A stretch of 41,048 nt of DNA from Segetibacter sp. (GTDB lineage Bacteria; Bacteroidota; Bacteroidia; Chitinophagales; Chitinophagaceae): the NCBI GenBank assembly GCA_025963675.1, contig JAOQAJ010000290.1, positions 1-41,048 on the forward strand, written 5' to 3'. The notes under the pieces were generated by a model that worked only from the letters and a program-made list of their open reading frames with translations, made no database searches and was not told the origin of the DNA. Both the position numbers and the translations under genes were made by a program. Every line of letters starts with the position of its first letter. The first letter of the stretch is position 1. This document shows, one piece after another, positions 2,090-40,811 of this stretch.

Positions 2090-2114
2090 CATTGTTGTGT
2101 CACTCACTTCTACC
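2090..2114 (-). repeat. Dispersed intergenic repeat, copy A
   Basis: Read on the minus strand it matches the 25-bp repeat best seen at 25668-25692 at 21 of 25 positions, including the whole core GAGTGACACAAC. It lies in the zapA-rny gap. Confidence 0.7.
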
Positions 2115-2415
2115 GCAACCCTTTATTGAGCCTTGCTAAGCCAAATTACATTTTTATCATCGCCACCTTACTTGACCAACTTCGATTTAGCATAAACCAA
2201 AAAACCCTTAAAAAAAGTTCAATAATGTAACTACAGACGAACGAATTGCGACGCAACGGTGACGAGGAAAATTACCAGAGCCCGGCTAAAAATTAAAAAA
2301 CTTAAAAAAATACCAGTGCAGTTGGCTGAAGTAAAAAATTGGTATGTACAGTATTTTAGCTGGATACTTTATTAGATACCTGTATCCGTACCCGATTGCC
2401 TTTAAAAGCAGGTGC

Positions 2416-9363: not shown

Positions 9364-10401
9364 TTACGCCTGCTTTTTTGCAGCAAGTTCGGTGCAAATG
9401 TTCTTCACAATCGCAGGACCTTCATAAATAAACCCGGTCCAAACCTGAATTAAGGATGCGCCAGCGGCGAACTTTTCACTTGCATCATCACCTGTAAAAA
9501 TTCCACCGCTTGCAATTACCGGCAAGGCTCCACCTGTTTGCTTAACGATGTATTGAACTATTTGTGTAGATTTTTGCCTCAAAGGTTTACCACTAAGGCC
9601 ACCCTGTCCGATTTTGCTAACCACTTCCGATCCGGTTTGCAGGTTTTCTCTGCTTATTGTAGTATTGGTTGCAACAAGACCATTTAGTTTAACCTCATGT
9701 GCCAGTTCTATAATATCATCTAACTGGCCAACCGTAAGGTCCGGGGCAATCTTCAATAACAGCGGCTTTGTATTCATTCGGCCCTGGTTGATATTTTGTA
9801 ACTGGCTTAATATTTTTCTCAGCGACGATTTCTCCTGCAACTCCCTTAAACCTGGGGTATTAGGTGAGCTTACATTAACGACAAAGTAATCAACACAATC
9901 AAACAGTTCGTTCATACAAATCTCATAATCCTTCCAGGCGTCGTCGTTCGGGGTAGCCTTGTTTTTTCCAATGTTTCCGCCAACAATAATGTTTCTTTTT
10001 GTCGCCCTCAGTCTGGCCGCTACCGCTTTTACCCCGTTGTTGTTAAACCCCATCCTGTTTATGATCGCCTCATCTTTAGGCAGGCGAAATAACCTTGGTT
10101 TATCATTACCAGGTTGAGGCAGGGGTGTCACTGTACCGATTTCAATAAATCCAAAACCTATTGCTTCCAGTTCTTTCAGGTAGAGTGCATTTTTATCGAA
10201 GCCTGCACCAAAACCAACAGGATTTCTAAACGGTAAACCAAACACTTGTTTATGTAAAGAGGAATGTTCGAAATGAAAATTTTTTGCGATCATTTTCTGT
10301 AAGACGGAAATGTTGGAGGCTCTTTTAAGCGAGTTCATTGCGAAGTAATGGACGGCTTCCGGGTCGAAGTTGAAAAGTAAATTGCGAATCAACGAATACA
10401 T
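9364..10401 (-). CDS. pyrD: Dihydroorotate dehydrogenase (quinone), class 2
   Basis: This FMN enzyme oxidises dihydroorotate to orotate in pyrimidine synthesis and passes electrons to membrane quinone. The 345 residues include the N-terminal helical extension (residues 1-45, MYSLIRNLLFNFDPEAVHYF) that marks the membrane-associated class 2 enzymes. The barrel carries NPVGFGAGFDKNA (60-72), NRMGFNNNG (115-123) and NVSSPNTPGLREL (176-188). By alignment with E. coli, Ser179 would be the catalytic base. Near the C-terminus, VIASGGIFTGDDA binds FMN phosphate. It sits alone on the minus strand, divergent from the thiolase. A one-mismatch -7 element (TACCTTCG) reads on the minus strand at about 10413-10406. 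Confidence 0.96.
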   Translation of the reverse strand: MYSLIRNLLFNFDPEAVHYFAMNSLKRASNISVLQKMIAKNFHFEHSSLHKQVFGLPFRNPVGFGAGFDKNALYLKELEAIGFGFIEIGTVTPLPQPGNDKPRLFRLPKDEAIINRMGFNNNGVKAVAARLRATKRNIIVGGNIGKNKATPNDDAWKDYEICMNELFDCVDYFVVNVSSPNTPGLRELQEKSSLRKILSQLQNINQGRMNTKPLLLKIAPDLTVGQLDDIIELAHEVKLNGLVATNTTISRENLQTGSEVVSKIGQGGLSGKPLRQKSTQIVQYIVKQTGGALPVIASGGIFTGDDASEKFAAGASLIQVWTGFIYEGPAIVKNICTELAAKKQA

Positions 10402-10586
10402 GCTGCGAAGGTAATGTTCGAAAATGTTTAAATTTGGTAAAAGAGCAGAAATATGAAATGGACGCTACGGGCATGCATTCTAAAACTAGTCGTGAACCAC
10501 CAATCTTAAGTAGGGCCGACAGGGTCGAATGTTAATCAGTATGATGCGTCTTGGACCGGTAAAGATTTCAAGGCGACTAAAGCACT

Positions 10587-10604
10587 TAGTTGCCTATGCA
10601 ACTA
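10587..10604. promoter_or_regulatory. Perfect 18-bp palindrome, likely operator of the thiolase gene
   Basis: TAGTTGCCTATGCAACTA has 7-bp perfect arms around CTAT. It lies 15 bp upstream of the -7 element at 10619, where it would overlap the -33 region. The shape resembles operators of MarR-family dimers. No regulator gene is in the window, so the binding protein is inferred. Confidence 0.55.
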
Positions 10605-10618
10605 CTGTTACTTTTTAT

Positions 10619-10626
10619 TACATTTG
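10619..10626 (+). promoter_or_regulatory. Predicted -7 element of the thiolase promoter
   Basis: TACATTTG matches TAnnTTTG exactly and is 21 bp before the thiolase ATG. There is no consensus -33; the palindrome at 10587-10604 occupies that position. Confidence 0.6.
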
Positions 10627-10647
10627 AATTCATAACTTTTATACAAT

Positions 10648-11826
10648 ATGCAGGAAGCTTATATAGTTGCAGGGTACAGAACTGCAGTAACTAAAAGTAA
10701 AAAAGGAGGATTTCGTTTTACCCGCCCCGATGACCTGGCAATTGACGTGATTAAAGGGTTAATGGCATCTATACCTCAATTGGAGGCAAAGAGAGTAGAC
10801 GATGTCATAGTAGGAAACGCAGTTCCCGAAGCTGAACAAGGATTGCAGGTAGGGAGGATCATAGCTGCAAGGGCTTTGGGATATGACACACCGGGAATGA
10901 CGGTGAATCGTTATTGTGCCAGCGGACTTGAAACTATTTCGATCGCTACGGCGAAAATAAGAATGGGAATGGCAGATTGTATCATTGCCGGCGGTGTAGA
11001 AAGCATGAGCATGGTACCCACGGCAGGTTGGAAAACTGTTCCCGCTTTCTCGATTGCTTCTGAAGAACCGGATTATTATTTAAACATGGGATTAACAGCG
11101 GAAGCTGTATCAAAAGAATACAAAGTCAGCCGCCAAGACCAGGATGAGTACAGCTACCAATCACATCAAAAAGCAATTAGTGCTATTTCTACCGGTTTTT
11201 TCAAAAACGGCATTTTACCGATAAATGTTGAGCAGGTATATCTTGATGAGAAAGGCAAAAAGCAAAAGAAAACGTATACTGTTGATACCGATGAAGGTCC
11301 TCGGGCAGATACCAGCATGGAGGCACTCACCAAATTAAAACCTGTTTTCGCTGCCGGCGGCGTTGTTACTGCAGGCAACTCTTCACAGACAAGTGACGGA
11401 GCAAGCTTTGTAATTGTGATGAGTGAGAAAATGGTTAATGAACTTGGATTAAAACCGATAGGTCGATTAGTTGCTTGTTCAAATGCCGGAGTTAATCCAA
11501 GGTTAATGGGGATCGGACCAGTCGCTGCTGTTCCAAAAGTTTTGAAAGCTGCGGGAATGACCCAAAATGAAATTGAGCTTATTGAATTGAATGAAGCATT
11601 TGCTGCCCAGGCTGTAGCTGTTATAAGGGAATTGAATTTAGATCCTGGAATAGTCAATATAAACGGTGGAGCCATAGCGCTTGGTCATCCACTCGGCTGT
11701 ACAGGAAGCAAATTGACTGTACAGATCTTAAATGATATGAAGCGACTTAATAAAAAATATGGAATGGTAACCGCATGTGTTGGCGGGGGACAGGGTATTG
11801 CAGGAATTATTGAAAACCTGCAGTAA
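10648..11826 (+). CDS. Thiolase (acetyl-CoA acyltransferase / acetyltransferase)
   Basis: This cytosolic enzyme performs thiolytic cleavage of 3-ketoacyl-CoA, or the reverse condensation of two acetyl-CoA. At 392 residues it matches the family. The acylated Cys is C90 in NRYCASG. The catalytic His is H347 in GHPLGCTGSK and the second Cys is C377 in CVGGGQG. NEAFAAQAVAV is also present. These motifs do not separate FadA-type beta-oxidation from biosynthetic AtoB/PhaA; no other fad gene is adjacent, so I give no symbol. It is monocistronic behind a consensus -7 element overlapped upstream by a palindrome, so it is probably under repressor control, as expected for a catabolic thiolase. No obvious terminator follows. 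Confidence 0.93.
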   Translation: MQEAYIVAGYRTAVTKSKKGGFRFTRPDDLAIDVIKGLMASIPQLEAKRVDDVIVGNAVPEAEQGLQVGRIIAARALGYDTPGMTVNRYCASGLETISIATAKIRMGMADCIIAGGVESMSMVPTAGWKTVPAFSIASEEPDYYLNMGLTAEAVSKEYKVSRQDQDEYSYQSHQKAISAISTGFFKNGILPINVEQVYLDEKGKKQKKTYTVDTDEGPRADTSMEALTKLKPVFAAGGVVTAGNSSQTSDGASFVIVMSEKMVNELGLKPIGRLVACSNAGVNPRLMGIGPVAAVPKVLKAAGMTQNEIELIELNEAFAAQAVAVIRELNLDPGIVNINGGAIALGHPLGCTGSKLTVQILNDMKRLNKKYGMVTACVGGGQGIAGIIENLQ

Positions 11827-11922
11827 TAATTTGTGCCCACCATCAGGTAAATTCTGGCGTGAAGAAAATTTATAGATTATAATGAAATAGAAGTATTATC
11901 CTGTAAATTACACATCTAACAC

Positions 11923-11932
11923 GTTTGCCCAT
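11923..11932 (+). promoter_or_regulatory. Motif shared by the glpD and glpF leaders
   Basis: GTTTGCCCAT occurs 16 bp before the glpD ATG and again at 15100-15109 upstream of glpF, each followed by a TA-rich stretch and CCGT. It may be a regulatory or promoter element, but two copies are weak evidence. Confidence 0.3.
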
Positions 11933-11948
11933 ATAATAACCCGTTTTA

Positions 11949-13607
11949 ATGCCTGAACAGCAACGAATTACAAAGTTCTCAAGGGATGAGTTTGTACAAA
12001 GAATTAACGACCAATCTGCATGGGACATAATTGTGATTGGCGGAGGAGCAACGGGCTTAGGCGTTGCAGTTGATAGTGCAAGCCGCGGTTATTCCACATT
12101 ACTTTTAGAGCAGGCTGATTTTGCTAAAGGTACTTCCAGCAGAAGCACAAAACTGGTGCATGGCGGTGTGCGCTATTTGGCTAAGGGTGATGTAAGGCTG
12201 GTGTATCATGCATTAGATGAAAGGGCAATCATGCTTAAAAATGCATCTCACCTCGTAAAAGCCCAATCTTTTATTATTCCCTGCTACAGCTTATTTTCCA
12301 CTATTAAATATGTTATCGGTCTAAAGCTTTATGACTGGCTTTCGGGCCGTTTCAGTTTTGGCAAATCAAGCTTTTTTAGCAGGAAAAAGGTAATACAACA
12401 ACTACCTAATATCAACACTAAGGGTTTAGCATCGGGCGTCGAATATTTCGATGGTCAATTTGATGATGCCCGCCTGGCAGTCAACCTTGCTCAGACAAGC
12501 GCTTCAAAAGGCGGGGTTCTTTTAAACTACTTTAAGGTAACGGGCTTACATAAACAACATGGGAAAGTAAATGGGGTTTCTGCTATAGACCTTGAAACTA
12601 ATAAGGAATATAACCTGTCAGCAAAGGTGGTGATAAACGCTACAGGAATTTTCGTTGATGAGGTGCTTAAGTTTGATGAACCGGGAAGACCGCCCCTGGT
12701 GAGGCCAAGCCAGGGAATTCATATCGTTTTAAAAAAATCCTTTCTAACAAGCACAAACGCAATACTTATACCTGAAACTAAAGACGGAAGAGTTTTATTT
12801 GCTGTTCCGTGGCATGAGCATGTACTGGTGGGTACCACCGATACTCCACTTACTACAAACAGCCTGGAACCTGTTGCACTGGAAGAGGAAATTGAATTTG
12901 TTCTTGAAACAGTGAAAAGTTATTTTACTGTTACCCCAACCCGCAAAGATGTCTTAAGCGTTTTCGCTGGCTTGCGTCCACTGGCAGCGGACAATAAAAA
13001 TTCAAACAGTACCAAGGAAATTTCACGTGATCATAAGCTACTGGTAAGCGCCTCAGGCCTTATAACAATTACCGGAGGCAAATGGACCACCTATAGAAAG
13101 ATGGCTGAGGAAACGGTAAACAAGGCAATTGAAGTTGGCAGGTTGGCAAAAAGCGTTTGTCTTACAAAAAAATTAAGGGTACATGGTTGCACAACCACTC
13201 ACATTAATAGCCATCTTTCAGTCTACGGAACCGACGCAGCAGGTATACAGGAATTGATCAAAGAAAACCCATCCTTAGATCGACTATTAGTTAATCAGTT
13301 ACCATATGTAGAAGCTGAGGTTGTTTGGGCAGTCCGCTACGAAATGGCAAGAAATCCTGAAGATGTGTTGGCGAGAAGGTTGCGGATTTTGTTTTTAGAC
13401 GCACTGGCTGCTATTGAAGCTGCTCCTCGTGTTGCAGAGCTGATAGCGGAAGAGCTTGGTTACTCCGAAGAATGGAAAAGAGTGCAATTAGCACGGTTCA
13501 ATCAGCTGGCTTATCAATACTTGCCAAATTTAAGATCGGATAATACCACCGAAACTAATAACAGAAACCAACAACCAAGTGATGGAAAAATTCATTCTTT
13601 CAATTGA
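11949..13607 (+). CDS. glpD: Glycerol-3-phosphate dehydrogenase, FAD-dependent (aerobic type)
   Basis: It oxidises sn-glycerol 3-phosphate to dihydroxyacetone phosphate at the inner face of the membrane and reduces quinone. The 552 residues fit GlpD. The FAD-binding Rossmann motif is [18 protein letters not shown] near residues 30-47. It is followed by the DAO-family segment [17 protein letters not shown] and, near residue 370, [20 protein letters not shown], which binds FAD and substrate. A C-terminal helical cap domain runs from ~390 to 525. It is the first gene of a glpD-glpK-glpF operon and its 3' end overlaps the glpK start by 26 nt. Whether it is induced by glycerol 3-phosphate cannot be read from the sequence; no glpR is in the window. 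Confidence 0.96.
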
Positions 13608-15072
13608 CCAGGGAACTACCAGTTCAAGGGCTATCGTCTTTAATCACAATGGCAATATTGAATCTATCGCTCAAAAAGAATTTACTCAGATTTATCCCCA
13701 GCCTGGTTGGGTAGAGCATGACGCCAATGAGATCTGGTCTTCACAGGCAGGAGTGGTTGCAGAAGCCGTCATTAAAGCAGGATTAAGGCCAATTGACATT
13801 GCCGCAATTGGTATAACCAATCAAAGAGAAACAACTATAGTTTGGGAAAGGGAAACTGGTCGCCCGATTTATAATGCAATTGTCTGGCAGGATCGCCGGA
13901 CCGCATCGTTTTGTGATGAGTTAAAACAAAAAGGGATCGATAAACTGATTCAGCAAAAAACCGGTCTTATTGTAGACGCTTATTTTTCGGCAACAAAAAT
14001 CAAATGGATATTAGAGAATGTAGCTGGTGCCAAAGAAAAGGCTTTAGCAGGCAAGCTTGCTTTTGGAACAGTAGACTCATGGCTTATCTGGAATCTAACA
14101 GCAGGAAAAACACATGTTACAGATGTAACCAATGCATCGCGAACAATGCTTTTCAATATTCATACACTTCAGTGGGATGAAGAGTTATTGAAAATATTCG
14201 ATGTTCCGTTAAATATGTTGGCAGAAGTTCGTTCTTCGAGTGAAGTATTTGGCGAAACTGCAGGTGAAATCTTAGCTGCAAAAATTCCAATCGCTGGTAT
14301 TGCGGGAGATCAACAGGCGGCACTATTTGGACAGATGTGTACGAAGACGGGAATGGTCAAGAATACTTATGGTACGGGATGTTTTATGCTGATGAATATT
14401 GGTGATCGTCCTGTCCTTTCTAAAAACAATTTAATTACGACCGTCGCCTGGAAGATCGGAGACCAGGTACAATATGCATTGGAAGGAAGCATTTTTGTTG
14501 GAGGCGCAGTTGTGCAATGGTTAAGAGATGGATTGCAAATCATTTCGTCCTCTGCCGAAGTTGAAGAACTTGCACAAAAAGTAGCCGACAATGGTGGTGT
14601 TTATGTTGTTCCGGCCTTTACCGGTTTAGGTGCGCCACATTGGAACCAGGATGCCCGCGGCACAATTGTCGGTCTTACCCGTGGCAGCACTTCAGCTCAC
14701 ATTGCCCGGGCAGCATTAGAAAGCATTGCTTTCCAGACAATGGAAGTTTTAAAGGCGATGGAAGCCGACTCCGGAGTTTCTATTGGTGAGTTGCGTGTCG
14801 ATGGTGGTGCTACTGTAAACGACCTGCTGATGCAGATACAGGCTGACGTGCTGCAAGCCAATGTTGTGAGGCCTGAGATCACTGAAACCACAGCAATGGG
14901 TGCAGCTTACCTTGCCGGTCTCGCAGTTGGTTATTGGAGCAGTGTTGATGAGATCAGCCAGCAATGGAAAGTAAACAGAACATTCGAACCGTCTAAAGAG
15001 AACAAACCAGAAGTTTTGATAAAAGGATGGCACAAAGCGGTAAGAGCCTGTAAGGCGTGGGCTGAGGATTAA
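13582..15072 (+). CDS. glpK: Glycerol kinase
   Basis: It phosphorylates glycerol with ATP to glycerol 3-phosphate in the cytosol, trapping glycerol that enters through GlpF and feeding GlpD. It has 496 residues from the ATG at 13582. The phosphate-binding loop [14 protein letters not shown] is at ~7-20, followed by [21 protein letters not shown] and [12 protein letters not shown]. The second FGGY-family region has [17 protein letters not shown] and [18 protein letters not shown]. The annotated frame could start at a GTG directly before the ATG, but the ATG gives the family's normal [15 protein letters not shown] start. It overlaps glpD by 26 nt in another frame, which implies translational coupling. 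Confidence 0.97.
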
Positions 15073-15099
15073 ATTGTTTAATTGATTGATGGTTTAATT

Positions 15100-15109
15100 G
15101 TTTGCCCAT
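15100..15109 (+). promoter_or_regulatory. Second copy of the glp leader motif
   Basis: GTTTGCCCAT is identical to 11923-11932 and lies 73 bp before the glpF ATG. A low-complexity CTCAAAA-type stretch (15141-15171) sits between it and the gene. Confidence 0.3.
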
Positions 15110-15182
15110 TTACTATCCGTACGCCATTCACGTTTTAAAGACTCAAAACTCAAAACCCAAAACTCCCAAACCGATTAAAGCC

Positions 15183-15932
15183 ATGTCAGAATTTACAGCC
15201 GAATTAATAGGTACCATGCTTGTTATTTTATTAGGCAATGGTGTTGTAGCCAACGTAGTATTGCATGGAACAAAAGGAAACAATGCTGGTTGGATGGTTA
15301 TCACTACGGGCTGGGCTCTTGCAGTGTTTGTGGGTGTGGTCATAGCGACTCCTTACAGTGGCGCTCATTTAAATCCTGCGGTTACGATTGGTCTTGCCGT
15401 TGCCGGAAAATTTGCCTGGAACAAAGTATTGACCTTCATCATTGCCCAATTGATAGGATCTGTTATAGGCGCTTTTTTAGTTTGGATCGTTTACCGGGAT
15501 CATTTCAACATGACAAAAGACCCAAATTCTCAATTAGCAGTTTTTTGTACAGCTCCCGCTATTCACAACCGCATTTTTAACTTGCTAAGTGAAATCGTTG
15601 GAACCTTCGTGCTTGTTTTTGTAATCTTTTATTTTACCAGTGCAGAAATTACCGATCAAAAAACACGTATCGGTCTTGGTTCATTAGGCGCTATACCCGT
15701 TACCTTTCTGGTGTGGGCGATTGGGTTGTCTTTAGGTGGAACAACCGGTTACGCCATCAATCCTGCGCGTGATTTCGGTCCCCGGATTGCTCATTCTATA
15801 TTGCCTATTAAAGGAAAAGGAAGCAGTAACTGGACATACGGTTGGATCCCGATCATTGGACCCTTTATAGGTGCTGTGATTGCTGCTCTTGTCTTCACCT
15901 GGCTAAAAGTAGAAATTGCCCCTGTTGAGTAA
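15183..15932 (+). CDS. glpF: Glycerol uptake facilitator (aquaglyceroporin, MIP family)
   Basis: This inner-membrane channel passes glycerol down its gradient. The 249 residues carry six transmembrane helices and two NPA half-helix motifs: SGAHLNPAVTIG with NPA at 64-66, and GYAINPARDFGPR with NPA at 193-195. The Asp after the second NPA (NPARD) marks glycerol-conducting members, not pure water channels. I chose the ATG at 15183 because MSEFTAELIGTMLVILLG begins the first helix as usual; the frame runs upstream through low-complexity DNA without conserved residues. It is the third gene of the glycerol cluster, 110 bp after glpK. That gap is long for an operon and may hold an internal promoter. 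Confidence 0.94.
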   Translation: MSEFTAELIGTMLVILLGNGVVANVVLHGTKGNNAGWMVITTGWALAVFVGVVIATPYSGAHLNPAVTIGLAVAGKFAWNKVLTFIIAQLIGSVIGAFLVWIVYRDHFNMTKDPNSQLAVFCTAPAIHNRIFNLLSEIVGTFVLVFVIFYFTSAEITDQKTRIGLGSLGAIPVTFLVWAIGLSLGGTTGYAINPARDFGPRIAHSILPIKGKGSSNWTYGWIPIIGPFIGAVIAALVFTWLKVEIAPVE

Positions 15933-15972
15933 AGAGAATTTTGGTGTTGCAAGCATTCGGACGTTCATGAAT

Positions 15973-15997
15973 CATCGTTGTGTCACTCTCTTGTACC
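15973..15997 (-). repeat. Dispersed intergenic repeat, copy C
   Basis: Read on the minus strand its 24-bp core differs from the 25669-25692 copy at one position. Similarity may extend to about 15943, where CGAATGCTTGC (minus strand) matches tails of other copies. Confidence 0.85.
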
Positions 15998-16032
15998 TAC
16001 CGTCTGTACTCATCTTTTTTCTCCAAACAATA

Positions 16033-16194
16033 GAACACGGATGACACGGATCAAACTGATAAAAACCGATTCTAAAATTGTTTCCCTGGTAATATCACTT
16101 CGCTAACGCTGTTTTTCCGGATAAAAACGGATTGGTTTAGGTTTTCTTACCTCGGTAATCTGCCTAATCCTCTCAATCTGTGTTATCCGTGTTC
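16033..16194. repeat. Inner inverted repeat pair
   Basis: GAACACGGATGACACGGAT at 16033-16051 is complementary at 17 of 19 positions to 16176-16194. The pair is centred inside the outer inverted pair of dispersed repeats and separated by 124 bp. Confidence 0.75.
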
Positions 16195-16317
16195 CAAAAA
16201 AACTTGTGCGCTCACCGTAGCACTTATACCTTTTCATGTTTGCTCAGCCAAAAGTGCCTGCTAAATTTCATATCGCTACGGTCATAGCTGGTTTGTTCTG
16301 CCGCATTTATATTTTAC

Positions 16318-16342
16318 AGTACAAGGGAGTGACACAACGATG
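16318..16342 (+). repeat. Dispersed intergenic repeat, copy D
   Basis: It begins AGTACAAGGGAGTGACACAA and is identical over 25 bp to the copy at 25668-25692. It is inverted relative to copy C, 320 bp away. Confidence 0.9.
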
Positions 16343-16444
16343 ACTCCACGTGTTACCAATGTTTGCTAAAACATTTTAGACTTTTGATCAGAACTATATA
16401 ATGCATTAATAAACCGATTTCCGTAAATACTAAAAGGCAATAAA

Positions 16445-16473
16445 AAAAGCTGCAATGATGTTTTGCAGCTTTT
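16445..16473 (-). terminator. Rho-independent terminator of fabH
   Basis: The 11-bp arms are perfect (AAAAGCTGCAA at 16445-16455, TTGCAGCTTTT at 16463-16473) with a 7-nt loop. On the minus strand it runs into a T tract, 22 bp after the fabH stop. Confidence 0.85.
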
Positions 16474-16494
16474 CTTATTTTTTCGAAAACGAAC

Positions 16495-17505
16495 TTATTT
16501 TGTAACATTCCCATCATAGGCCCACTTGATCAAAGTTGCGCCCCAGGTAAAACCGCCACCAAAAGCGGCAAGCACCAGGTTATCGCCTTTTTTCAATTGG
16601 TTTTCCCACTCCCATAAACACAAAGGAATTGTTCCCGAAGTCGTGTTGCCATAGCGCATAATATTGAGCATCACCTTTTCAGGAGGTATCCCCATGCGCT
16701 TTGCAGTAGCGTCAATTATTCTTTTATTGGCCTGGTGAGGAACCAGCCACGCTATATCATCACCAGTGAGGTTATTTCTTTGAATCAATTCATAAGATAC
16801 ATCTGCCATACCTACCACGGCAAATTTGAAAACCGATTGCCCTTCCTGGTATATATAATGTTCTTTTGCCGCAAGTGTTTCTGCAGAGGCGGGTTTTCGT
16901 GAACCCCCGGCTTTCATGTTAAGATATTTTTCGCCGCTTCCGTCTGTTTTAAGGTTACTGTCTAAAACGCCATATCCTTCTTCGCCTGGTTCAAGTAAAA
17001 CAGCTCCGGCTCCATCGCCGAATAAAATGCAAGTTGTTCTATCGCTGTAATCGACAATTGCACTCATTTTATCAGCACCAACCACCACTACTTTTTTGTA
17101 ACGACCGCTTTCTATGAGTGACGCGCCCATCGTTAAGCCAAATAGAAACCCCGAACAAGCTGCTCCCAAATCGAAGCTGAATGCGTTTTTTGCACCTATT
17201 TTTTCACTTATGATATTAGCAGTCGCCGGAAAAAGCATATCGGCAGTAACGGTGCAGCAAATGATCACCTCAATTTCCAGAGGATCTATACCGCGTTTTT
17301 CACATAAATTAAGCACTGCAGGTGCACCAAGATCAGATGTTGCTTTTCCTTCACCTTTCAAAATTCTCCTTTCTTCTACACCTGTTCTCGACTTTATCCA
17401 CTCATCGTTTGTTTCTACAAGCGTTTCTAACTCCTTATTTGTCAATCTGTATTCAGGAACATATCCACCCACACCGGTAATTGCTGCGCTAATTTTTTGT
17501 GACAT
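16495..17505 (-). CDS. fabH: 3-oxoacyl-[acyl-carrier-protein] synthase III
   Basis: It condenses acetyl-CoA or branched acyl-CoA primers with malonyl-ACP to start fatty acid synthesis. The 336 residues carry the full catalytic triad: C117 in [10 protein letters not shown]257 in [11 protein letters not shown] and N287 in [11 protein letters not shown]. The C-terminal [16 protein letters not shown] is typical. Primer preference cannot be read with confidence. It sits alone on the minus strand, divergent from ruvA and convergent with glpF, with its own terminator. Bacteroidota often have several FabH-like proteins, so it need not be the only one in the genome. Confidence 0.95.
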
Positions 17506-17616
17506 TGATTGCTTTATAATTATTTAATTCGGGGGATAAAAGTAATTGTTTATTCTTGAATAGTAAAAGCAGCAGCTTGCAGGTCTCGCTAAGCAAATTT
17601 TTATTTTAAAATAATA

Positions 17617-17647
17617 TTTGTACTTCGCTTTTCATCTTATATTTTTG
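17617..17647 (+). promoter_or_regulatory. Consensus Bacteroidota promoter of ruvA-sprA
   Basis: TTTG at 17617-17620, a 19-nt spacer and TATTTTTG at 17640-17647 match the Bacteroidota consensus (TTTG, 19-21 nt, TAnnTTTG) at every defined position. Transcription would start near 17653, about 17 nt before the ruvA GTG. Confidence 0.75.
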
Positions 17648-17669
17648 AAACCCCGTTAAATACTTGTAT

Positions 17670-18254
17670 GTGATCGCGTTTGTCAGAGGAAAGTTTGCAG
17701 TTAAAAATCCCGCCCAAATTATTGTTGATGTAAATGGAGTTGGTTACGAATGCCAGGTGAGCCTAAATACCTATTCTGCTATTAGCGACCAGGATAGCGG
17801 ACAACTGTTTACATACGTTCATATTACTGAGAACAACCAGACCTTATATGGATTTGCAGATTTGTCTGAAAAAGAACTGTTCACCCAACTAATCAGTGTT
17901 TCGGGCGTTGGTGCAGCGACAGCAAGAATGATGTTGTCTGGAATGAAGCCTGACGAAATTATTAGAGCAATCGTGCAAAGCAATGCACGCCTACTGGAAA
18001 GCATCAAAGGAATAGGTAGAAAGACTGCTGAACGACTATGTTTAGAGTTAAAAGACAAATTAAGTAAGAACTTAAACGATGCTAATCTTACACCTTCCGT
18101 TGCAAATAAAATGGAAAACGACGCATTGAATGCGTTAATTTCTTTAGGAATTCCAAAGCCGAACGCAGAAAAGGCAATAAAAAACGTTATTGATGCAAAT
18201 GGTGCAAACATTCCATTAGAAGAGCTCATAAAAAGAGCCCTAAAAAACATTTAG
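17670..18254 (+). CDS. ruvA: Holliday junction branch migration protein RuvA
   Basis: RuvA binds Holliday junctions as a tetramer and positions the RuvB motor during recombinational repair. The 194 residues show an N-terminal OB-fold (1-65), with the helix-hairpin-helix segments FTQLISVSGVGAATARMMLS and LLESIKGIGRKTAERLCLEL (~70-130). A short C-terminal RuvB-contact domain follows (~145-194). The start is most likely the GTG at 17670, giving MIAFVRGKF. A TTG two codons upstream is possible, while the ATG at 17668 is out of frame and hits a stop at once. The upstream promoter is a full consensus. sprA follows after 33 bp on the same strand. Confidence 0.95.
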   Translation: MIAFVRGKFAVKNPAQIIVDVNGVGYECQVSLNTYSAISDQDSGQLFTYVHITENNQTLYGFADLSEKELFTQLISVSGVGAATARMMLSGMKPDEIIRAIVQSNARLLESIKGIGRKTAERLCLELKDKLSKNLNDANLTPSVANKMENDALNALISLGIPKPNAEKAIKNVIDANGANIPLEELIKRALKNI

Positions 18255-18287
18255 CCTATAGAGAGAATTGTACATAAACTACTTTCG

Positions 18288-21200
18288 GTGTCGGTACGTT
18301 ATTATTACAAATTTTCTTTAATACTTTTCATAATCTTTTTTGCTTTTGCGGCAACCTGTACTTATGCACAGGATACCAGCCGTCGTGCTACAAAAGACAC
18401 TACCCGCTTTCCTATAAGCGACAGGGTAGGCGATCCTTTTACCTACAAATCAAATAATCCTTTCAATCTTTCTGACACTGGCTACATAAAAAGAGACATT
18501 CAATATGACCCAAAAACAAAGCAATATTATATAGTTGAGAAAATAGGCAATTCAAACTATAGGACACCCACTTACATGACCTTTGAGGAGATGATGCGTT
18601 TTAAGGCAAGGGAGTCTGAAAGTGAATATTTTAGAAAAAGAGCAAATACCTTAAGTGTCTTAAACAGAAAAGTTGAGCGCCCAAAACTAAAAACGTACGA
18701 TAAGCTTTTTGATAGAATATTTGGTGTGGGGCCAAACGGATTAAAAGTTGACATCAGGCCTCAAGGTAATGTTGATATTACCGCCGGATACGAGGGGCAA
18801 AATATTAAAAATCCTACACTTCCTGAAAGTGCAAGAAAGAATGGTGGCTTTGACTTCAATATGAATTCAAATATCAATGTTATTGCCAATATCGGAGACA
18901 AGCTCAAACTTCCTATTAATTATAATACACTTGCAAACTTTGACTTTGAAAACCAGTTGAAGCTGGATTACAAAGGAATGGACGATGAAATTATAAAGTC
19001 CATTGAAGCAGGAAATGTATCGTTTACGTCAAAAGGAACCCTAATTCCAAGTGCACAAAGTCTGTTTGGTTTAAAGACTCAGTTGCAGTTTGGTAAATTA
19101 TTCTTGTCCGGAGTAATCGCAACCCAAAAAGCCCAACGGCAATCACTTGCATTACAAGGCGGCGCCGCCACCTCCACGTTCAACAAGAAAATTGATGATT
19201 ATGAAGAAAACAGGCACTTCCTGTTAGCAGATTATTTCAGAGCAAATTATAACAGGGCAATGCAAAGCTTGCCGGTAGTTAATAGCCAGGTGCAAATTTT
19301 AAGGATGGAAGTTTGGGTAACCAACCGGACCGGAGCAACTACAGAGACAAGGGATGTAGTTGGTTTGATGGATTTAGGTGAATCTACCCCCTTCAATCCA
19401 AATGTTCATAGTAACAATACCGGTGTACTTCCTGAAAATAAGGCGAATGACTTGTATACAAATTTGATTAATTCTCCCTCGATCCGTAATCCTGTTTTAA
19501 TAAATTCTATTTTAATCGGTAAAGGCTTGCGCGCAGTTGAAGATTATGAAAAAACATTTGCAAGAAAACTAAATCCAAACGAATATTACTTCAACCCACA
19601 AATTGGTTTCGTTTCCCTAAACCAGCAATTACAGGCTGATGAGGTATTGGGAGTAGCATACCAGTATACGTACAACGGAAGGGTTTTCCAGGTAGGAGAG
19701 TTTTCACAGGATGTTGCACTTGACTCTACACAAGGTGTGCAAAAAGTATTGTTACTGAAATTATTAAAAGCGACTTCACAACGTCCCGCGCTGCCAATTT
19801 GGAGATGGATGATGAAAAATGTTTATTCATTGGACCTGCCGGGAATTCAAAGGCAGGATTTTAAGTTGAACGTTTTGTACCAGGAGCCAAGCGGAGGTTT
19901 AAAAAGATATTTACCCGAGGGAGATTCTTCTGTAGAAGGAAGAACGTTGCTGCGAATTTTGAATCTTGACCGACTCAATAACCAGAATGACCCGTTACCT
20001 GACGGGGTCTTCGATTATGTGGAAGGCTTTACAGTACTATCCCAACAGGGAAAAATAATTTTCCCGCTTCTTGAGCCTTTTGGGCGCGATCTGGAAAGAC
20101 TCGCTTTTTCCGGTACATCAAGTGCACTTGCCCCAAAATACGTCTATCGCCAGTTGTACGACTCTATAAAAGCAATTGCTCAAACTTATGCAAACCTAAA
20201 TCGGTATGTGATGCAAGGTGCCGGAAAGGGCAGTTCTTCATCTGAGATCTATTTAGGCGCATTCAACGTTCCACCGGGATCGGTTACTGTTACAGCAGGA
20301 GGCCAGATCTTAAGAGAGAATTTTGATTATAGTATTGATTATAATCTTGGTACAGTAAAAATTCTGAATGGAGCTATCCTAAACAGTGGTGTCCCGGTAA
20401 ATGTTCAATTTGAAAATAATGCGGGTTTTGGTATACAACAACGAAGTTTCCTGGGGTTACGCGCCGACTATTTAGCAAATAAAAAGCTGTCGTTAGGGGC
20501 AACAATGGCCCGCCTGTCTGAGCGGCCTTTTTTTACCAAAATGAATTATGGTGAAGATCCGATCAGAAACACAATGTATGGTGTAGACTTTAATTATCGT
20601 ACGCAGTCGGCCGGCCTTACCCGACTTTTAAATAAGCTTCCTTTTTATGAAAGCAATACGATGTCTTCAATTAATGCTTACGGAGAAGCTGCTTTTTTAA
20701 AGCCGGGTCATCCAGCTCAAATTGGTTCAGGAAGCAATGGATTGATTTATGTTGACGACTTTGAAGGAACACGAAATAGCATTGATCTGCGGTTTCCTTT
20801 TATTTCCTGGGCTTTGGCCAGTACACCGCAAAATAACGGGTTGTTTCCTGAAGCGACTTTAATTGACTCCTTACCTTATAACTATAACAGGGCAAAATTA
20901 GCCTGGTATAATATAGAACCAATTTTGCAGGATAGAAACAGTGTAAACAATCCTTTAAGGAGAAATGTAGCTGAATTGAGCGATCCAAGAGTGAGGGCGG
21001 TTTTCAACCAGGAGCTGTATCCGCAGAGAACGAATAATTTGGGCGAAAACCAGTTAGTGACTTTTGACCTTGCATATTATCCAACTGATATCGGACCTTA
21101 CAACTACGTGAGCGATGCAGCGCAGGTGGATGCAAATGGAAAATTGAAAAATCCACGAAAGCGTTGGGGCGGTATAATGAGATCGATTGATCAAACCGAT

Positions 21201-24200
21201 TTTGTGACCAGTAATGTAGAATTTGTTGAGTTCTGGGTACAGGACCCTTTTATCAAAAAACCTAATAGCACCGGCGGAAAATTATATTTAAACCTGGGTT
21301 CAATTAGCGAAGACGTATTGAAGGATGGAAGACGTTTTTACGAAAATGGCTTAAACTCACCAAATCAGCCATCTGCCGTCGACAACTCCTCTACTTGGGG
21401 TAGAACACCCGTTAACCCGATCCAGGTTACACAAGCTTTTAGCAACGATCCTGCTGACCGCCCTTTCCAGGATGTAGGTTTTGATGGATTAGATGACGGT
21501 GGGGAAGCGACGAAAAGATCAACTTATTTAAATAATGTGCTGGCCAATTTTGGCCCCGGTTCTGCCTTATATGCAAGGGCACAGCAAGACCCGTCAAACG
21601 ATAACTATAGATGGTACCGTGACAACGCCTATGATGCAGCAAATACCGGCATTCTTGGCAGATATAAAAACTTCAATAACCCGCAAGGCAATTCCCCGAT
21701 AGCTACAGGCAATTCTCAGTTTAGTCCTGCAGCTACATTATATCCTGACAATGAAGATTTAAACAGGGATAACACGCTGAATGAAAGTGAAGAATATTAT
21801 CAATATGAGATTGACCTTCATCCAAACATGCGGGTAGGAGATAAATACATTACCGACCGGCAAAATATTTCAATTAGATATGCCGATGGTTCTACCGGCA
21901 CCGAACCATGGTATTTGTTTAGAGTACCCATTTCCGATTATCAGCAAAAGGTGGGCAATATTCCCGATTTTAAATCAATTCGATTTGTCAGGATGTTTCT
22001 TACAGATTTCGAAGATTCTGTTGTACTTCGTTTCGCCCGCCTCGACCTTGTTCGTAACCAATGGAGAAACTTTGCTTTTAAATTAGATACTACCGGCAAT
22101 TACGTTCCGCAACCTCGTGGTGGTAATACCACTTTTAATGTTTTGGCTGTAAACGTTGAAGAAAACAGTAAAAGACAACCTGTTAACTATCTAATTCCTC
22201 CGGGCATAGAAAGAGTTCAGCAATTAAGTAATAATGGCATTAACCTGTTGCAAAACGAACAGGCCATGAGTTTTCAAATTCGAAATCTTCCTACCAATGA
22301 TGTTAGGGCTGCATTTAAAACTATGAACCTCGACATGAGGCAGTATGGTAGCTTAAACATGTTCGTGCATGCTGAAAGTGTAGTAGGAAGCCAGCCTTTG
22401 AATAATAAGCAACTAAACGCCGTAATTCGAATTGGAAGCGATTTTCTTAATAACTATTATGAGATAAAAATACCTCTTGTAGTTACACCACCGGGCTTTT
22501 ATGCAAATACTGAGGAAGGCCAGAGAAAGGTTTGGCCAGATAGTAACAATCTGGATTTTAACATCCAGGACCTCGTTCAGTTAAAAAACCGGCGAAACAA
22601 CGCTACTGCAAATATTACCGGTTATTACCAGGAAACTATTGGTACTAAAAAGTATGCAATTAAGGGAAATCCTAATCTTGGAGAGGTGCAGGCGTTCCTG
22701 ATTGGAGTTGAAAACTCCCAGGCCTCCGATGGTATTCCCGCCAGCGCCGAAGTTTGGATCAATGAACTTCGTTTATCTAAACTAAACGAAAAAGGGGGAT
22801 ATGCAGCAACCGGTCGCGTTGACATTAATCTGGCTGACCTCGGTACGGTAGCGATTTCCGGAAGCACACATACCACTGGTTTTGGTACCCTTGAGCAACG
22901 TGTAAACGAGAGAGCCAGGGAAAACTTTATGCAGTATGATATAGCAGCAAACCTCGAAATGGGTAAGTTGCTACCGAAAAGTCTGGGGATTTCTATTCCG
23001 CTTTATGCAAGCATCAATCAGACAATTACTACTCCCGAATATGACCCTTATGATCTGGATGTTAGGCTAAAAGACAAGTTGAATACTTTAGGAGGTAACG
23101 CTAAGGTGACGGCCAGAAAGGCTGCAATTGATAAAACGACCATTAAAACGATCAATTTTACTAACATGCGCATAATGCCTTCTGCCAAAACCAGGATCTG
23201 GAGCGTTAGTAATTTTGACTTTAGTTATTCTTATATAAAGTTCGAACAGGCTAATCCGCTGATACTTAAAAACGATGTAATTAAGCATAGAGGAGGTTTG
23301 GGTTATACATTTAATAAACAGGCGAAATATATAGAGCCGTTTAAAAAGATCATAAAATCAAAATCGCCCTGGTATGCACTAGTTCGCGAGTTCAACTTCA
23401 ATCCTCAGCCATCTTTATTAAGCTTTAGAGCAGATGTCAACCGTCAGTTTGGAACGTTTGTTCCCCGCATTGTAAACACTTTCGACAGTAAGGTGGATAG
23501 GGTAGATACTACTTACGACAAGTTTTTTACTTTCGACAGATATTACAATTTAAGGTGGGATTTAACCAAATCATTAAATGTTGATTTCTCTGCCGTAAAC
23601 AATGCACGGATTGATGAGCCGGAAGGAGCAATCAATACCAGTGCTAAAAAAGATACTATTCGAACCAATTTTTTTAAGGGTGGCAGAAATACATTGTATC
23701 AGCAAAGAGCAATAGCCAGTTATACATTTCCATTCGCCAAGTTGCCACTTACAGATTGGATTAACGCCCGTTATAGTTATACTACCACTTACAATTGGAT
23801 CGGTGCAAGCCGACTGGCCTTAAGCCTTGGTAATACAATTGAAAATAGCCAGGAAAATAACATTAACGGTGAATTTGATTTTACGAGGCTATACTCAAAG
23901 AGCAGGTGGCTACGGGGGTTAGAGCAACCGGCTCAAGCAGGAAACCAGGACCCAAATTCGAAGGGTCGAAATCAGAAGCCGCCTCAGGCTGCAAACCCAA
24001 ATGCTCCGGCTGCATCCACTTTGCCTTCGCGCGAGGAGGTGACAAAAGGGTTGACAGGAAAAGCGAAACGAGTGGCATTGCGTAAATGGAGAAAGCAGCG
24101 CCGTGATGAGCGAAAAGCTGCCCGATTATTAAAAGCAGCACAACCGGTCGAAATGCCGGGCATCGCAAGAGCTGGCGGACAACTGTTAACGATGGTAAAA

Positions 24201-25583
24201 CGAGGCACTGTTAATTATGGCGAAAGTTATCGCAGCAGAATTCCCGGTTACACAGATATTCCGAAAGCCCTTGGTCAACATTGGGCGAGTATGGCCCCGG
24301 GTCTTGACTACGTCTTTGGCAGACAACCCGATTCGAGCTGGCTTAATGAAAAAGCGGCAAGAGGTTTAATATCACGTGATACTACACTGAATTTTATGTT
24401 CCGGCAAAGTCTTGATCAAAAGCTGGCTATTACCGCACAGATAGAACCGATTAGAGAATTTACCGTGGACCTTAATATGGAAAAAACGTACACGAAGGAT
24501 TATTCAGAATTATTTAAAACAGTATCTCAAAATGGCAATTTTGAACATTTAAGTCCTTTGGCAACTGGAGGCTTCAACGTTTCCTATATCGCATTTAAGA
24601 CTTTATTTACTAAAAACAAACCGACTGAGATTTCTCAGACTTTCAGGAATTTTGAGGCTTACCGGCTTATTTTATCTGAAAGATTAGCGCTTGCAAATCC
24701 ATATCAAAAAGGATTGGGCATAAACCAGGATGGCTTTTATAAAGGCTATAACCGTTATGCGCAGGATGTTTTAATTCCAGCTTTCATTGCAGCCTATTCT
24801 GGCCAGGATCCTAAAGCTGTAGGTTTAATCGAGCAAACAAACCCTAATATAAAATCTAATCCGTTTAAGAGCATTAAGCCAAAACCAAACTGGAGAGTAA
24901 CATATACAGGGCTTACCCGCATTCAAGCTCTGGCTAAAACCTTCAGTAGTATCAGCATAACACATGCTTACACCGGCAGTTTGGGTATGAATAGTTTTAA
25001 TAGTGCTTTGAATTTCACTGATCCTTTTGCGTACAGCGCCCCGGGGTTTTTGGATACGGTTTCAGGCAATTTTGTGCCGTTTTTCCTTGTTCCTAATGTC
25101 ACCATTCAGGAAGGGTTTAGTCCTTTTTTAGGTATTGATGTAACCACGGTTAGTCAATTAACGGCCAGCCTGCAATATAAAAAGAGTCGGCAATTGAGTT
25201 TAAGCCTGGTAGATTATCAGCTAAGTGAAGTAAACAGTACAGAGATCACTATTGGTGGAAGTTTCAGGAAGCGCGGCTTTAACCTGCCATTTAAATTGCC
25301 CGGGACGAAAGGAAAAAAACTGCAGAATGACATCAATTTCAGGTTCGACCTGAGTGTTCGTGACGATGCTACCAGTAATAGCCGGCTTGATCAGGATAAT
25401 GCGTTTAGCACCGGAGGTCAAAAAGTTGTTACACTGCAGCCATCAATAGATTATGTTTTAAACAACAGGGTGAATATAAAATTGTACTTCGACCAGAGAA
25501 AGGTGGTGCCTTACATCTCAACCTCCGCCCCGGTCACAAATACCCGCGCTGGTGTGCAAATCAGGATTTCGTTGGCGCAGTAA
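18288..25583 (+). CDS. sprA: SprA, type IX secretion / gliding motility outer-membrane translocon
   Basis: SprA forms the giant outer-membrane barrel through which type IX secretion substrates, including gliding adhesins, leave the periplasm. The 2431 residues match the family. A signal peptide (LILFIIFFAFAATCTYA, likely cleaved after A27) is followed by SprA-type repeats. GLRADYLANKKLSLGATMA is near 720-740 and IYVDDFEGTRNSIDLRFPFISW near 820. The C-terminal half is rich in alternating beta-strand sequence and ends VQIRISLAQ, a barrel-like terminus. A basic, Pro/Gln/Ala-rich segment at about 1880-1970 looks disordered. The start is a GTG 33 bp after ruvA, with no in-frame ATG nearby, so the two are probably co-transcribed. 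A strong terminator follows. Confidence 0.96.
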   Translation: MSVRYYYKFSLILFIIFFAFAATCTYAQDTSRRATKDTTRFPISDRVGDPFTYKSNNPFNLSDTGYIKRDIQYDPKTKQYYIVEKIGNSNYRTPTYMTFEEMMRFKARESESEYFRKRANTLSVLNRKVERPKLKTYDKLFDRIFGVGPNGLKVDIRPQGNVDITAGYEGQNIKNPTLPESARKNGGFDFNMNSNINVIANIGDKLKLPINYNTLANFDFENQLKLDYKGMDDEIIKSIEAGNVSFTSKGTLIPSAQSLFGLKTQLQFGKLFLSGVIATQKAQRQSLALQGGAATSTFNKKIDDYEENRHFLLADYFRANYNRAMQSLPVVNSQVQILRMEVWVTNRTGATTETRDVVGLMDLGESTPFNPNVHSNNTGVLPENKANDLYTNLINSPSIRNPVLINSILIGKGLRAVEDYEKTFARKLNPNEYYFNPQIGFVSLNQQLQADEVLGVAYQYTYNGRVFQVGEFSQDVALDSTQGVQKVLLLKLLKATSQRPALPIWRWMMKNVYSLDLPGIQRQDFKLNVLYQEPSGGLKRYLPEGDSSVEGRTLLRILNLDRLNNQNDPLPDGVFDYVEGFTVLSQQGKIIFPLLEPFGRDLERLAFSGTSSALAPKYVYRQLYDSIKAIAQTYANLNRYVMQGAGKGSSSSEIYLGAFNVPPGSVTVTAGGQILRENFDYSIDYNLGTVKILNGAILNSGVPVNVQFENNAGFGIQQRSFLGLRADYLANKKLSLGATMARLSERPFFTKMNYGEDPIRNTMYGVDFNYRTQSAGLTRLLNKLPFYESNTMSSINAYGEAAFLKPGHPAQIGSGSNGLIYVDDFEGTRNSIDLRFPFISWALASTPQNNGLFPEATLIDSLPYNYNRAKLAWYNIEPILQDRNSVNNPLRRNVAELSDPRVRAVFNQELYPQRTNNLGENQLVTFDLAYYPTDIGPYNYVSDAAQVDANGKLKNPRKRWGGIMRSIDQTDFVTSNVEFVEFWVQDPFIKKPNSTGGKLYLNLGSISEDVLKDGRRFYENGLNSPNQPSAVDNSSTWGRTPVNPIQVTQAFSNDPADRPFQDVGFDGLDDGGEATKRSTYLNNVLANFGPGSALYARAQQDPSNDNYRWYRDNAYDAANTGILGRYKNFNNPQGNSPIATGNSQFSPAATLYPDNEDLNRDNTLNESEEYYQYEIDLHPNMRVGDKYITDRQNISIRYADGSTGTEPWYLFRVPISDYQQKVGNIPDFKSIRFVRMFLTDFEDSVVLRFARLDLVRNQWRNFAFKLDTTGNYVPQPRGGNTTFNVLAVNVEENSKRQPVNYLIPPGIERVQQLSNNGINLLQNEQAMSFQIRNLPTNDVRAAFKTMNLDMRQYGSLNMFVHAESVVGSQPLNNKQLNAVIRIGSDFLNNYYEIKIPLVVTPPGFYANTEEGQRKVWPDSNNLDFNIQDLVQLKNRRNNATANITGYYQETIGTKKYAIKGNPNLGEVQAFLIGVENSQASDGIPASAEVWINELRLSKLNEKGGYAATGRVDINLADLGTVAISGSTHTTGFGTLEQRVNERARENFMQYDIAANLEMGKLLPKSLGISIPLYASINQTITTPEYDPYDLDVRLKDKLNTLGGNAKVTARKAAIDKTTIKTINFTNMRIMPSAKTRIWSVSNFDFSYSYIKFEQANPLILKNDVIKHRGGLGYTFNKQAKYIEPFKKIIKSKSPWYALVREFNFNPQPSLLSFRADVNRQFGTFVPRIVNTFDSKVDRVDTTYDKFFTFDRYYNLRWDLTKSLNVDFSAVNNARIDEPEGAINTSAKKDTIRTNFFKGGRNTLYQQRAIASYTFPFAKLPLTDWINARYSYTTTYNWIGASRLALSLGNTIENSQENNINGEFDFTRLYSKSRWLRGLEQPAQAGNQDPNSKGRNQKPPQAANPNAPAASTLPSREEVTKGLTGKAKRVALRKWRKQRRDERKAARLLKAAQPVEMPGIARAGGQLLTMVKRGTVNYGESYRSRIPGYTDIPKALGQHWASMAPGLDYVFGRQPDSSWLNEKAARGLISRDTTLNFMFRQSLDQKLAITAQIEPIREFTVDLNMEKTYTKDYSELFKTVSQNGNFEHLSPLATGGFNVSYIAFKTLFTKNKPTEISQTFRNFEAYRLILSERLALANPYQKGLGINQDGFYKGYNRYAQDVLIPAFIAAYSGQDPKAVGLIEQTNPNIKSNPFKSIKPKPNWRVTYTGLTRIQALAKTFSSISITHAYTGSLGMNSFNSALNFTDPFAYSAPGFLDTVSGNFVPFFLVPNVTIQEGFSPFLGIDVTTVSQLTASLQYKKSRQLSLSLVDYQLSEVNSTEITIGGSFRKRGFNLPFKLPGTKGKKLQNDINFRFDLSVRDDATSNSRLDQDNAFSTGGQKVVTLQPSIDYVLNNRVNIKLYFDQRKVVPYISTSAPVTNTRAGVQIRISLAQ

Positions 25584-25600
25584 ATAAAATCTTAGTAGAA

Positions 25601-25642: not shown

Positions 25643-25667
25643 AGGGAAAGTTCAATAGATGACTAAA

Positions 25668-25692
25668 AGTACAAGGGAGTGACACAACGATG
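25668..25692 (+). repeat. Dispersed intergenic repeat, copy E
   Basis: It is identical over 25 bp to copy D at 16318-16342, 9.3 kb away. It lies after the sprA terminator. Confidence 0.9.
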
Positions 25693-25812: not shown

Positions 25813-25894
25813 CATGTAATTCTATGGCACTTTTCCTTAAGCTTTTTGCTGCTTATTAAGCTTTTCTTTCAAGTGAAACGCGATGTACTTTCCT

Positions 25895-30340: not shown

Positions 30341-30365
30341 TTCCGTTGTGTCTCACTCCTGTACT
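30341..30365 (-). repeat. Dispersed intergenic repeat, copy F (with indel)
   Basis: Read on the minus strand it begins GTACAGGAGTGAGACACAAC. Relative to copies D and E it lacks two bases in the G-rich part and has two extra before ACACAAC. It lies after the DksA-like gene. Confidence 0.7.
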
Positions 30366-30605
30366 TTTTGCAAGTTGTCAGAGCCGGGATTTGTGAGATG
30401 TATGTAGATTGTGTGATTGAAACCTCCAAGCATCGCTGATCTTGTTTTATTTCCGTAGCCTACAATCCTTCCTTTGCCCCGACTTACTTTCAGTCATCAA
30501 CGCAATCGAGCCAAAAAGAAACCGAGCAAAACTTTTAGAATTGAACCTGGTTGTAGGAATTTATTCTCTATATATATGAGACTGAAGTAAAATAGCGAAT
30601 CCAAA

Positions 30606-30629
30606 AGATGAATGGAGCGTCGCAACAAA
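30606..30629 (-). repeat. Second intergenic repeat, copy 2
   Basis: AGATGAATGGAGCGTCGCAA followed by CAAA is the inverted partner of 25789-25812, with one mismatch in 24. Confidence 0.8.
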
Positions 30630-37323: not shown

Positions 37324-37432
37324 TAGTAATAAGGAAGTATCTGTACAAGCAGCATATAAAGGTAGAAGTGTGCGACGCAAGAGAGTTTAATAGACATACT
37401 TTAGCTCGATACAAAAAAGTTCTTTCTAAATC

Positions 37433-40714: not shown

Positions 40715-40740
40715 CCTTCGTTGCGTCGCACTCTTGTACT
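40715..40740 (-). repeat. Dispersed intergenic repeat, copy G
   Basis: Read on the minus strand it is GTACAAGAGTGCGACGCAAC followed by GAAG, matching copy E at 19 of 24 positions. It lies in the 134-bp gap between the kinase and its response regulator. Confidence 0.75.
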
Positions 40741-40811
40741 TTTTTTAATTCTATTCTGCTTTTTCAAAAAAAATAAAGCGATCAATAAGGTAAACTTAAA
40801 AACCAGGAACT

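Follow-up and report, generated by a model that had tools for sequence, protein, structure and literature searches.

An intergenic repeat of Segetibacter and other Chitinophagaceae whose core may be kept as a protein-binding site

Introduction

High-copy extragenic repeats of bacteria are usually explained as mobile hairpins. The repeat described here was noticed in a 41,048-nucleotide contig of a Segetibacter species (the whole of which is called the window below), where a 25-bp core recurs at several intergenic places. Is such a repeat a parasite, or is it a site that has been tamed by its host? An earlier note on this DNA offered three explanations: a REP-like element moved by a RAYT-type transposase, a protein-binding element, and an RNA element. 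No description of the Segetibacter repeat family and no mention of a Segetibacter intergenic repeat were found in open-licence PMC text. The core 14-mer was also absent from that text, and GCGACGCAACG was found there only in papers unrelated by title.

The genome containing the window (G000; 4.93 Mb, 444 contigs, 88% complete) was compared with those of nine sister species (G001 to G009), making ten genomes of one genus, and with wider sets from the family, order and class. G001, G049, G164, G004, G010 and G013 were read as samples and not whole. Named loci were chosen for carrying the version-1 core, and some of them belong to the genome of G001, so a few copies are counted twice. Genes were predicted with our own hexamer ORF caller, and a core was counted as coding if at least 7 of its 14 bases overlapped an ORF.

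Copies in the window and the anatomy of the unit

All six core copies described in the earlier note were found again at the same positions and on the same strands. A low-threshold scan of the window (score >2) with a matrix of 26 positions yielded eight copies, compared to none in the reversed window, and recovered the two stretches that had been called degenerate relatives, at 2236-2261 (+) and 37360-37385 (+). Every copy in the window lies outside predicted genes, as the note had said. The features are as follows, with the strand where one applies.

2090..2115, minus strand: core copy, version 1 (ACAATG), head to head with 2236-2261
2236..2261, plus strand: weak core copy, version 2 (GCGACGCAACGGTG), head-to-head partner of the 2090 copy, matrix score 8.0
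15973..15998, minus strand: core copy, version 1, head side cut by the MITE starting at 15997, so that the final two bases of the matrix match belong to the MITE
15988..15996: left flanking 9-mer of the MITE, CTCTTGTAC, which is the arm of the core
15997..16220: MITE of 224 bp with ends CTACCGT...CACCGTAG; its left end is repeated in G000
16221..16229: right flanking 9-mer of the MITE, CACTTATAC, like the left 9-mer at 7 of 9 positions
16317..16342, plus strand: core copy, version 1, the copy originally reported, found by the matrix
25667..25692, plus strand: core copy, version 1, beyond the hairpin-like terminator of a 2431-aa gene
30341..30366, minus strand: degenerate core copy, facing 30614-30626
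30614..30626, plus strand: variant core GGAGCGTCGCAAC, which aligns with similar sequence in G009, G006 and G005
37360..37385, plus strand: weak copy, matrix score 4.0
40716..40741, minus strand: core copy, version 2 (GCGACGCAACGAAG), found by the matrix

A further possible core of the third version (see below), GGAGCGTCGCAAC on the minus strand, was seen at 25792-25804, about 100 bp from the 25667 copy.

When copies were aligned on the exact core, the conserved block was a 26-bp core reaching from -12 to +14. The loose tail described in the earlier note was right in kind; the real tail is of the type GC[C/T]GGTAACAAAAA and ends about 30 bp past the core. A weak head with GCTGAATA lies about 30 bp ahead of the core. 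With head and tail, the whole unit spans roughly 75-85 bp and occurs either singly or as a head-to-head doublet.

The core comes in two versions, AGTGACAC and TGCGACGC, and mixing of the two is almost absent. Version 1 has the layout GTACAAGTGA-GTGACAC-AACGATG, and version 2 has arms with a terminal T followed by GCGACGC. A third version, GCGTCGC, was found at window position 30614 and in its counterparts. Positions 1 and 5 covary in the 305 exact cores (207 T/A, 97 C/G and 1 T/G), and position -1 shifts too. Base pairing was considered as a source of this covariation and rejected: the top standard-pair signal came from positions 1 and 5, which have three bases between them and would form a minimal stem, and folding gave no support. 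In 70 sampled copies (-40 to +55), folding was no better than in shuffled sequences, with a mean z of -0.16 and 0.31 on the two strands and a z below -2 in 2 of the 70 copies on each strand. Arms of the type that ends in GATT are associated with the tail GCTGGTATT, and weaker links of arm and tail were seen in other types; no pairing rule was found for this association.

Abundance in the genus and beyond

A total of 482 matches to GTRACRCAACGATG with at most one mismatch were counted in G000, compared to 4 for the pattern read backwards, and the exact GYGACRCAACGATG was found 369 times compared to 0 for the reversed control. The genome-wide count is therefore far above chance. Exact counts of GYGACRCAACGATG in G000 to G009 were, in order, 369, 923, 14, 159, 51, 478, 270, 49, 2 and 231, where the 14 comes from a genome that is only 71% complete (G002). 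The reversed control was 0 in each of the ten.

In the family, at least one match to GYGACRCAACGAWG was found in 112 of 244 genomes, and high counts were scattered over few genera, for example 362 in G164, 284 in G172, 281 in G049 and 277 in G087. Congeners of G049 were low (2 in G145 and 0 in G213), and both genomes of the genus of G164 were high (147 and 362). In the class sample, 6 of 119 genomes had a match, namely G000 (369), G013 from the same family (11) and four of the 115 genomes from other families, which carried a single match apiece. No exact core was found in 15 genomes from other families of the order. Among the named contigs listed, in a scan that may omit records very near the window, the extended core was found mostly in Segetibacter, then in Ferruginibacter and in other Chitinophagaceae and Bacteroidetes.

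A dialect of the core in low-copy genomes was looked for and rejected. Matrix matches above 5 numbered only 7, 4 and 0 in the samples of G004, G013 and G010, respectively, with 0, 0 and 1 in the reversed control. Loci of G004 (L287-L296, L260 and L261) contain other repeated words, TTGGCTAAAGCC and TTGGCTTTAGCC, which are unlike the core.

Placement and orientation

The intergenic bias seen in the window holds more widely, since none of the 305 exact cores was inside an ORF, even though coding sequence makes up 81-87% of the DNA sampled, and only 2 of 545 matrix matches above 8 were (the reversed controls gave 4 matches). For seven matrix matches, the caller had placed a start codon on the core's own ATG. 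Of the 305 exact cores, 18 lie at a locus edge and have no neighbour class.

Occupancy of intergenic regions climbs with their length. Among 728 regions of at least 40 bp in four genomes, a copy was held by 10 of 160 regions below 100 bp, by 70 of 221, 77 of 153 and 74 of 131 in the intermediate length classes (ascending), and by 38 of 63 regions of at least 500 bp; all 13 regions of this last class in G001 were occupied. Copy-rich genomes had a copy in 189 of 347 sampled intergenic regions of at least 200 bp. Tandem, convergent and divergent regions all hold copies, in both orientations. The tail of antisense copies often abuts a stop codon, and the shortest core-to-stop distances were 15 (once) and then at least 26. 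Replication-strand bias was absent in the one-contig genome G164 (66 vs 59, p = 0.59), so there is no KOPS-like polarity. The occurrence of both orientations in all types of region, together with this lack of strand bias, suggests a role in DNA and not in mRNA.

A cassette arrangement, in which genes would be bracketed by copies with their tails inward, was also considered and rejected, with 3, 13, 5 and 1 cases observed compared to 3.9, 9.4, 9.4 and 1.8 expected. At 10063-12316 of locus L265 in G001, outward cores flank an insert of about 2 kb with one 550-aa gene and new intergenic DNA. The genes on either side of this insert adjoin each other in the window's genome and in several sister species, and the product of the 550-aa gene presumably resembles a sulfatase/phosphoethanolamine-transferase.

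Neighbouring copies within 400 bp of each other in four genomes were arranged -+ 35 times, +- 6 times, ++ once and -- never. The excess of -+, which is head to head, means that the tails point outward. With a looser test for an inverted partner, the head side and tail side gave 37 of 87 vs 4 in G164, 14 of 81 vs 7 in G001, 7 of 26 vs 0 in G049 and 1 of 61 vs 2 in G000; only in G164 was the head-side excess significant in a rank test (p = 2e-6). Heterotypic doublets made up 30 of the 48 classified compared to 20.2 expected (p = 0.003; five pairs in which a member was unclassified are omitted), and 18 of 29 compared to 12.4 expected once the ascertained named loci were left out (p = 0.03). Doublet members were no better conserved than singles in G000, G001, G164 and G049 (p = 0.93, 0.52, 0.18 and 0.80, respectively).

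Conservation between sister species

In a first comparison of 40 orthologous intergenic pairs, a copy was present in both members of 14 pairs, in one member of 15 and in neither of 11. These numbers are biased, since carrying the core was the reason for choosing the named loci. Alignments of orthologous regions showed that the core was retained and the flanks had drifted.

A less biased test used copies from G000 only, taken from three 20-kb stretches and the window (the window yielded no pair with a copy), and scored how well the 26-mer could be matched without gaps in the sister's orthologous region. The core matched at 20 or more of 26 positions in 11 of 22 orthologous pairs (10 regions), compared to 14 of 215 control windows taken from these regions (Fisher p = 6e-7, which assumes independent pairs, and the pairs are not fully independent). 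Six of the 11 kept copies scored 24-25 of 26 with drifted flanks, and the rest scored 20-23. The other 11 pairs scored 13-18, close to the control mean of 15.2. Since half of the orthologous pairs are without a good core match, turnover is fast. For 7 of the 10 regions, one or more sister species had retained the core.

On alignment, two of the low-scoring pairs proved to be kept copies. The score in G009 at region 14 of L228 was lowered by a 2-bp deletion, and at region 9 of L226 G000 carries version 1 of the core, whereas G009 carries version 2. The rare arm GTTGCAGTGA at region 14 of L228 is common to G009, G000 and G006, which points to vertical descent. Some control windows, several of which lie at gene edges, were as conserved as the core, and in L216 region 12 and L226 region 9 they were better conserved.

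For the window itself, the copy at 25667, after the 2431-aa gene, recurs in G009, G006 and G007 on the same strand and the same side; G005 has a distant counterpart and G001 an opposite one, and G004 and G003 lack it. The copy at 16317, after a ketoacyl-synthase III gene (Pfam), has counterparts in G009, G006, G005 and G001, and they are absent in G007, G004 and G003; G002 and G008 were not assessable at this locus. A protein-binding site would be expected to keep a fixed place while its flanks drift, and both the counts (11 of 22 vs 14 of 215) and the alignments are consistent with this.

A MITE in the arm of the core

When the genus was searched with window positions 13600-32600, the stretch 15967-16234 was found to be repeated in G000 at least 29 times with 89-95% identity. 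This stretch contains a MITE that is species-specific and has about 40 copies: its left end was found 40 times in G000 (at most one mismatch) and 0 times in the nine sister genomes. The 20 parsed copies have inverted ends CTAC[C/G]GTG on both sides and a length of 220-232 bp, as expected of a MITE.

All 20 fetched copies, out of 29 listed, and the window copy sit in the arm of a core element, although copies outside cores could be missed because the list was ranked by likeness to a stretch that includes a core. The copy L246 is in a degenerate core. The insertion context is C[A/C/T]CTT followed by GTAC, CAAC, GTGC or CGAC. Near-same left flanks are found in L235 and L240 and in L237 and L251, so the independent left sites possibly number 18. 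The right flanks of these same copies differ, which suggests exchange between MITE copies or mis-assembly.

The flanking 9-mers were identical in 8 of 20 copies, with a mean of 7.60 of 9 compared to 7.03 for shuffled partners (reached in 28 of 5000 shuffles); L240 was not parsed here and L252 was parsed poorly. Since several copies have mismatched flanks, a target-site duplication is rated as likely and no higher. Exchange between copies or assembly errors may have produced mixed MITE ends.

In the window, the MITE splits a would-be head-to-head pair with a spacing of 110 bp. By simple arithmetic, without the MITE and the duplicated 9-mer the 16317 copy would lie 110 bp from the 15973 copy, which is an ordinary head-to-head spacing. 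Several other features of the MITE were observed. Its interior contains a ATCCGTGT-type inverted sequence, and several copies lie near contig ends and may break the assembly. In G000, a core-like stretch in intergenic region 8 of L219 is interrupted by about 20 bp with CTACCGGTAG, a possible scar of MITE ends.

Recent spread and RAYT mobility

The earlier note had read the 25-bp identity of distant copies as a sign of recent spread or selection. Recent spread was not borne out, as the identity is that of the conserved core and near-identical copies were not found. Among 324 copies from four genomes, no pair exceeded a score of 0.82 over -40 to +50, where the score is an alignment score per base and not plain identity. 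Mean pair scores fell from 0.71-0.76 for the core to 0.49-0.51 for the tail, 0.42-0.45 for the head and 0.39-0.40 at distant positions. The lack of near-identical copies and these pair scores argue against a recent burst.

The proposal of a REP-like element moved by a RAYT, an IS200-type Y1 transposase, held in part. The arrangement is REP-like, with intergenic placement, hundreds of copies and inverted doublets. Y1 transposase matches were found in 14 of 16 genomes tested, including four in G000, but their number does not track that of the cores: G001 has 923 cores and two Y1 matches (a weak one and one containing three stops), G007 has 49 cores and none, and G008 has 2 cores and seven. Moreover, a copy was present within the fetched flank (about 1.5 kb) at just 2 of 10 Y1 loci, three of which are from other genera. 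Both of these copies were in low-copy sisters and one was weak, and none of the four loci from copy-rich genomes (G000, G003, G006 and G009) holds a core copy. A hairpin is also lacking, with folding z averaging about 0 on both strands of the 70 copies. Movement by a RAYT is therefore considered extremely unlikely.

Discussion

The explanation that we favor, with slightly less than even confidence, is that this is an old Chitinophagaceae-specific extragenic repeat whose arms are under purifying selection as putative double-stranded recognition sites of a sequence-specific DNA-binding protein. Judging from sequence comparison, a bound protein would fit best as the keeper of the core, given that the core is retained, occurs in both orientations, shows no RNA structure and is indifferent to the direction of genes and of replication. 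A protein-binding element would thus be the best fitting of the options in the earlier note. The putative protein would most plausibly be a dimer reading half-sites GYG/GYG around a central A, and positions 1 and 5 change together as would be expected if each site had to suit a dimer of one or the other half-site specificity. Instead of two dimer specificities, the versions could reflect old subfamilies that conversion has kept distinct. The job of the sites would be chromosome organisation or insulation between transcription units and not the control of single genes; an insulator, a nucleoid site and a topoisomerase site are all compatible with the data. The sites may derive from an old mobile doublet, as the doublets, their heterotypic composition and the uneven copy numbers suggest. 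It is possible, though doubtful, that the cores are putative sites of a Chitinophagaceae nucleoid/insulator system that is read by a dimer with GTG or GCG half-sites, would be bound in roughly half of the intergenic regions of at least 200 bp in copy-rich genomes, and arose from a tamed, extinct mobile doublet. Counting against a protein site are the copy number, which ranges from 2 to 923 within one genus and is odd for an essential site, and the origin of all 22 orthologous pairs from three 20-kb stretches of one genome.

Another possible explanation, which we find rather unlikely, is that the copies are remnants of an ancient non-autonomous mobile element, namely a doublet of REPIN or MITE type whose two ends differed. 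Doublets would have moved, singles would be decayed doublets, and the arms would be conserved by the needs of a transposase and by conversion between copies. The predominance of head-to-head pairs (35, compared to 6 tail to tail and 1 in the same orientation), the heterotypic excess (30 of 48 vs 20.2), the head-side partners in G164 (37 of 87 vs 4) and the patchy copy number among genera would all follow from such an origin. However, the 324 copies from four genomes include no near-identical ones, conservation is no higher in doublet members than in singles, and the head-side excess is clear in G164 only and absent in G000 (1 vs 2). The rare variant common to three species also points to vertical descent, and no linked transposase was found among the ten Y1 loci.

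An RNA element, such as an untranslated-region signal, a terminator or a small RNA, could explain why the antisense tail often comes directly after a stop codon, with a T-run following the stop. This is quite unlikely, since the independence of orientation in tandem, convergent and divergent regions and the lack of structure in 70 folded copies disfavor it. In addition, inspection by eye suggests that the genes that end at 25583 and 16495 each have their own hairpin-like terminator ahead of the element, and Rfam gave 5 weak matches in the window, with 0 over a core and 0 at the gathering score. A DNA-uptake or self-recognition sequence would also occur in hundreds of copies in both orientations, and the same core is found in several related genera. 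Known uptake sequences occur in genes too, but copies of this repeat are excluded from genes, and the low-copy G004 has just 7 matrix matches above 5 in 221 kb and words unlike a dialect of the core, making this explanation very unlikely.

The repeat shares features with several known systems. REPINs (PMC3116915) are inverted doublets of hairpins tied to RAYTs, with doublets better conserved than singles. The Segetibacter repeat is likewise extragenic, with hundreds of copies, inverted doublets and singles that are possible remnants, but its unit has no hairpin, a RAYT association was not found, and its doublets are not better conserved. The CGTC-tagged REPs (PMC3733652) form head-to-head dimers, with heterodimers predominant in some families, and have a stem-loop but no dedicated transposase. 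Head-to-head dimers, heterodimers and an apparent lack of a dedicated transposase are found here too, and version 2 read backwards contains CGTC; in contrast, the 26-bp core is not a hairpin and no stem-loop lies beside the CGTC. The insertion sequences ISPpu9 and ISPsy8 target REPs with high selectivity (PMC1525189). The MITE of G000 is similarly selective for an extragenic repeat, but it is a 224-bp element without a gene and its target is an arm that is not a hairpin. Small mobile intergenic sequences such as ERIC resemble the repeat in being intergenic, dispersed and on the order of 100 bp long.

The repeat differs from the mobile hairpins by which such families are usually explained. A hairpin-free repeat that often stays nearly unaltered from one species to another, at fixed positions between genes, makes the question of a parasite or a tamed site testable, and the MITE in the arm of the core provides a natural marker of target recognition.
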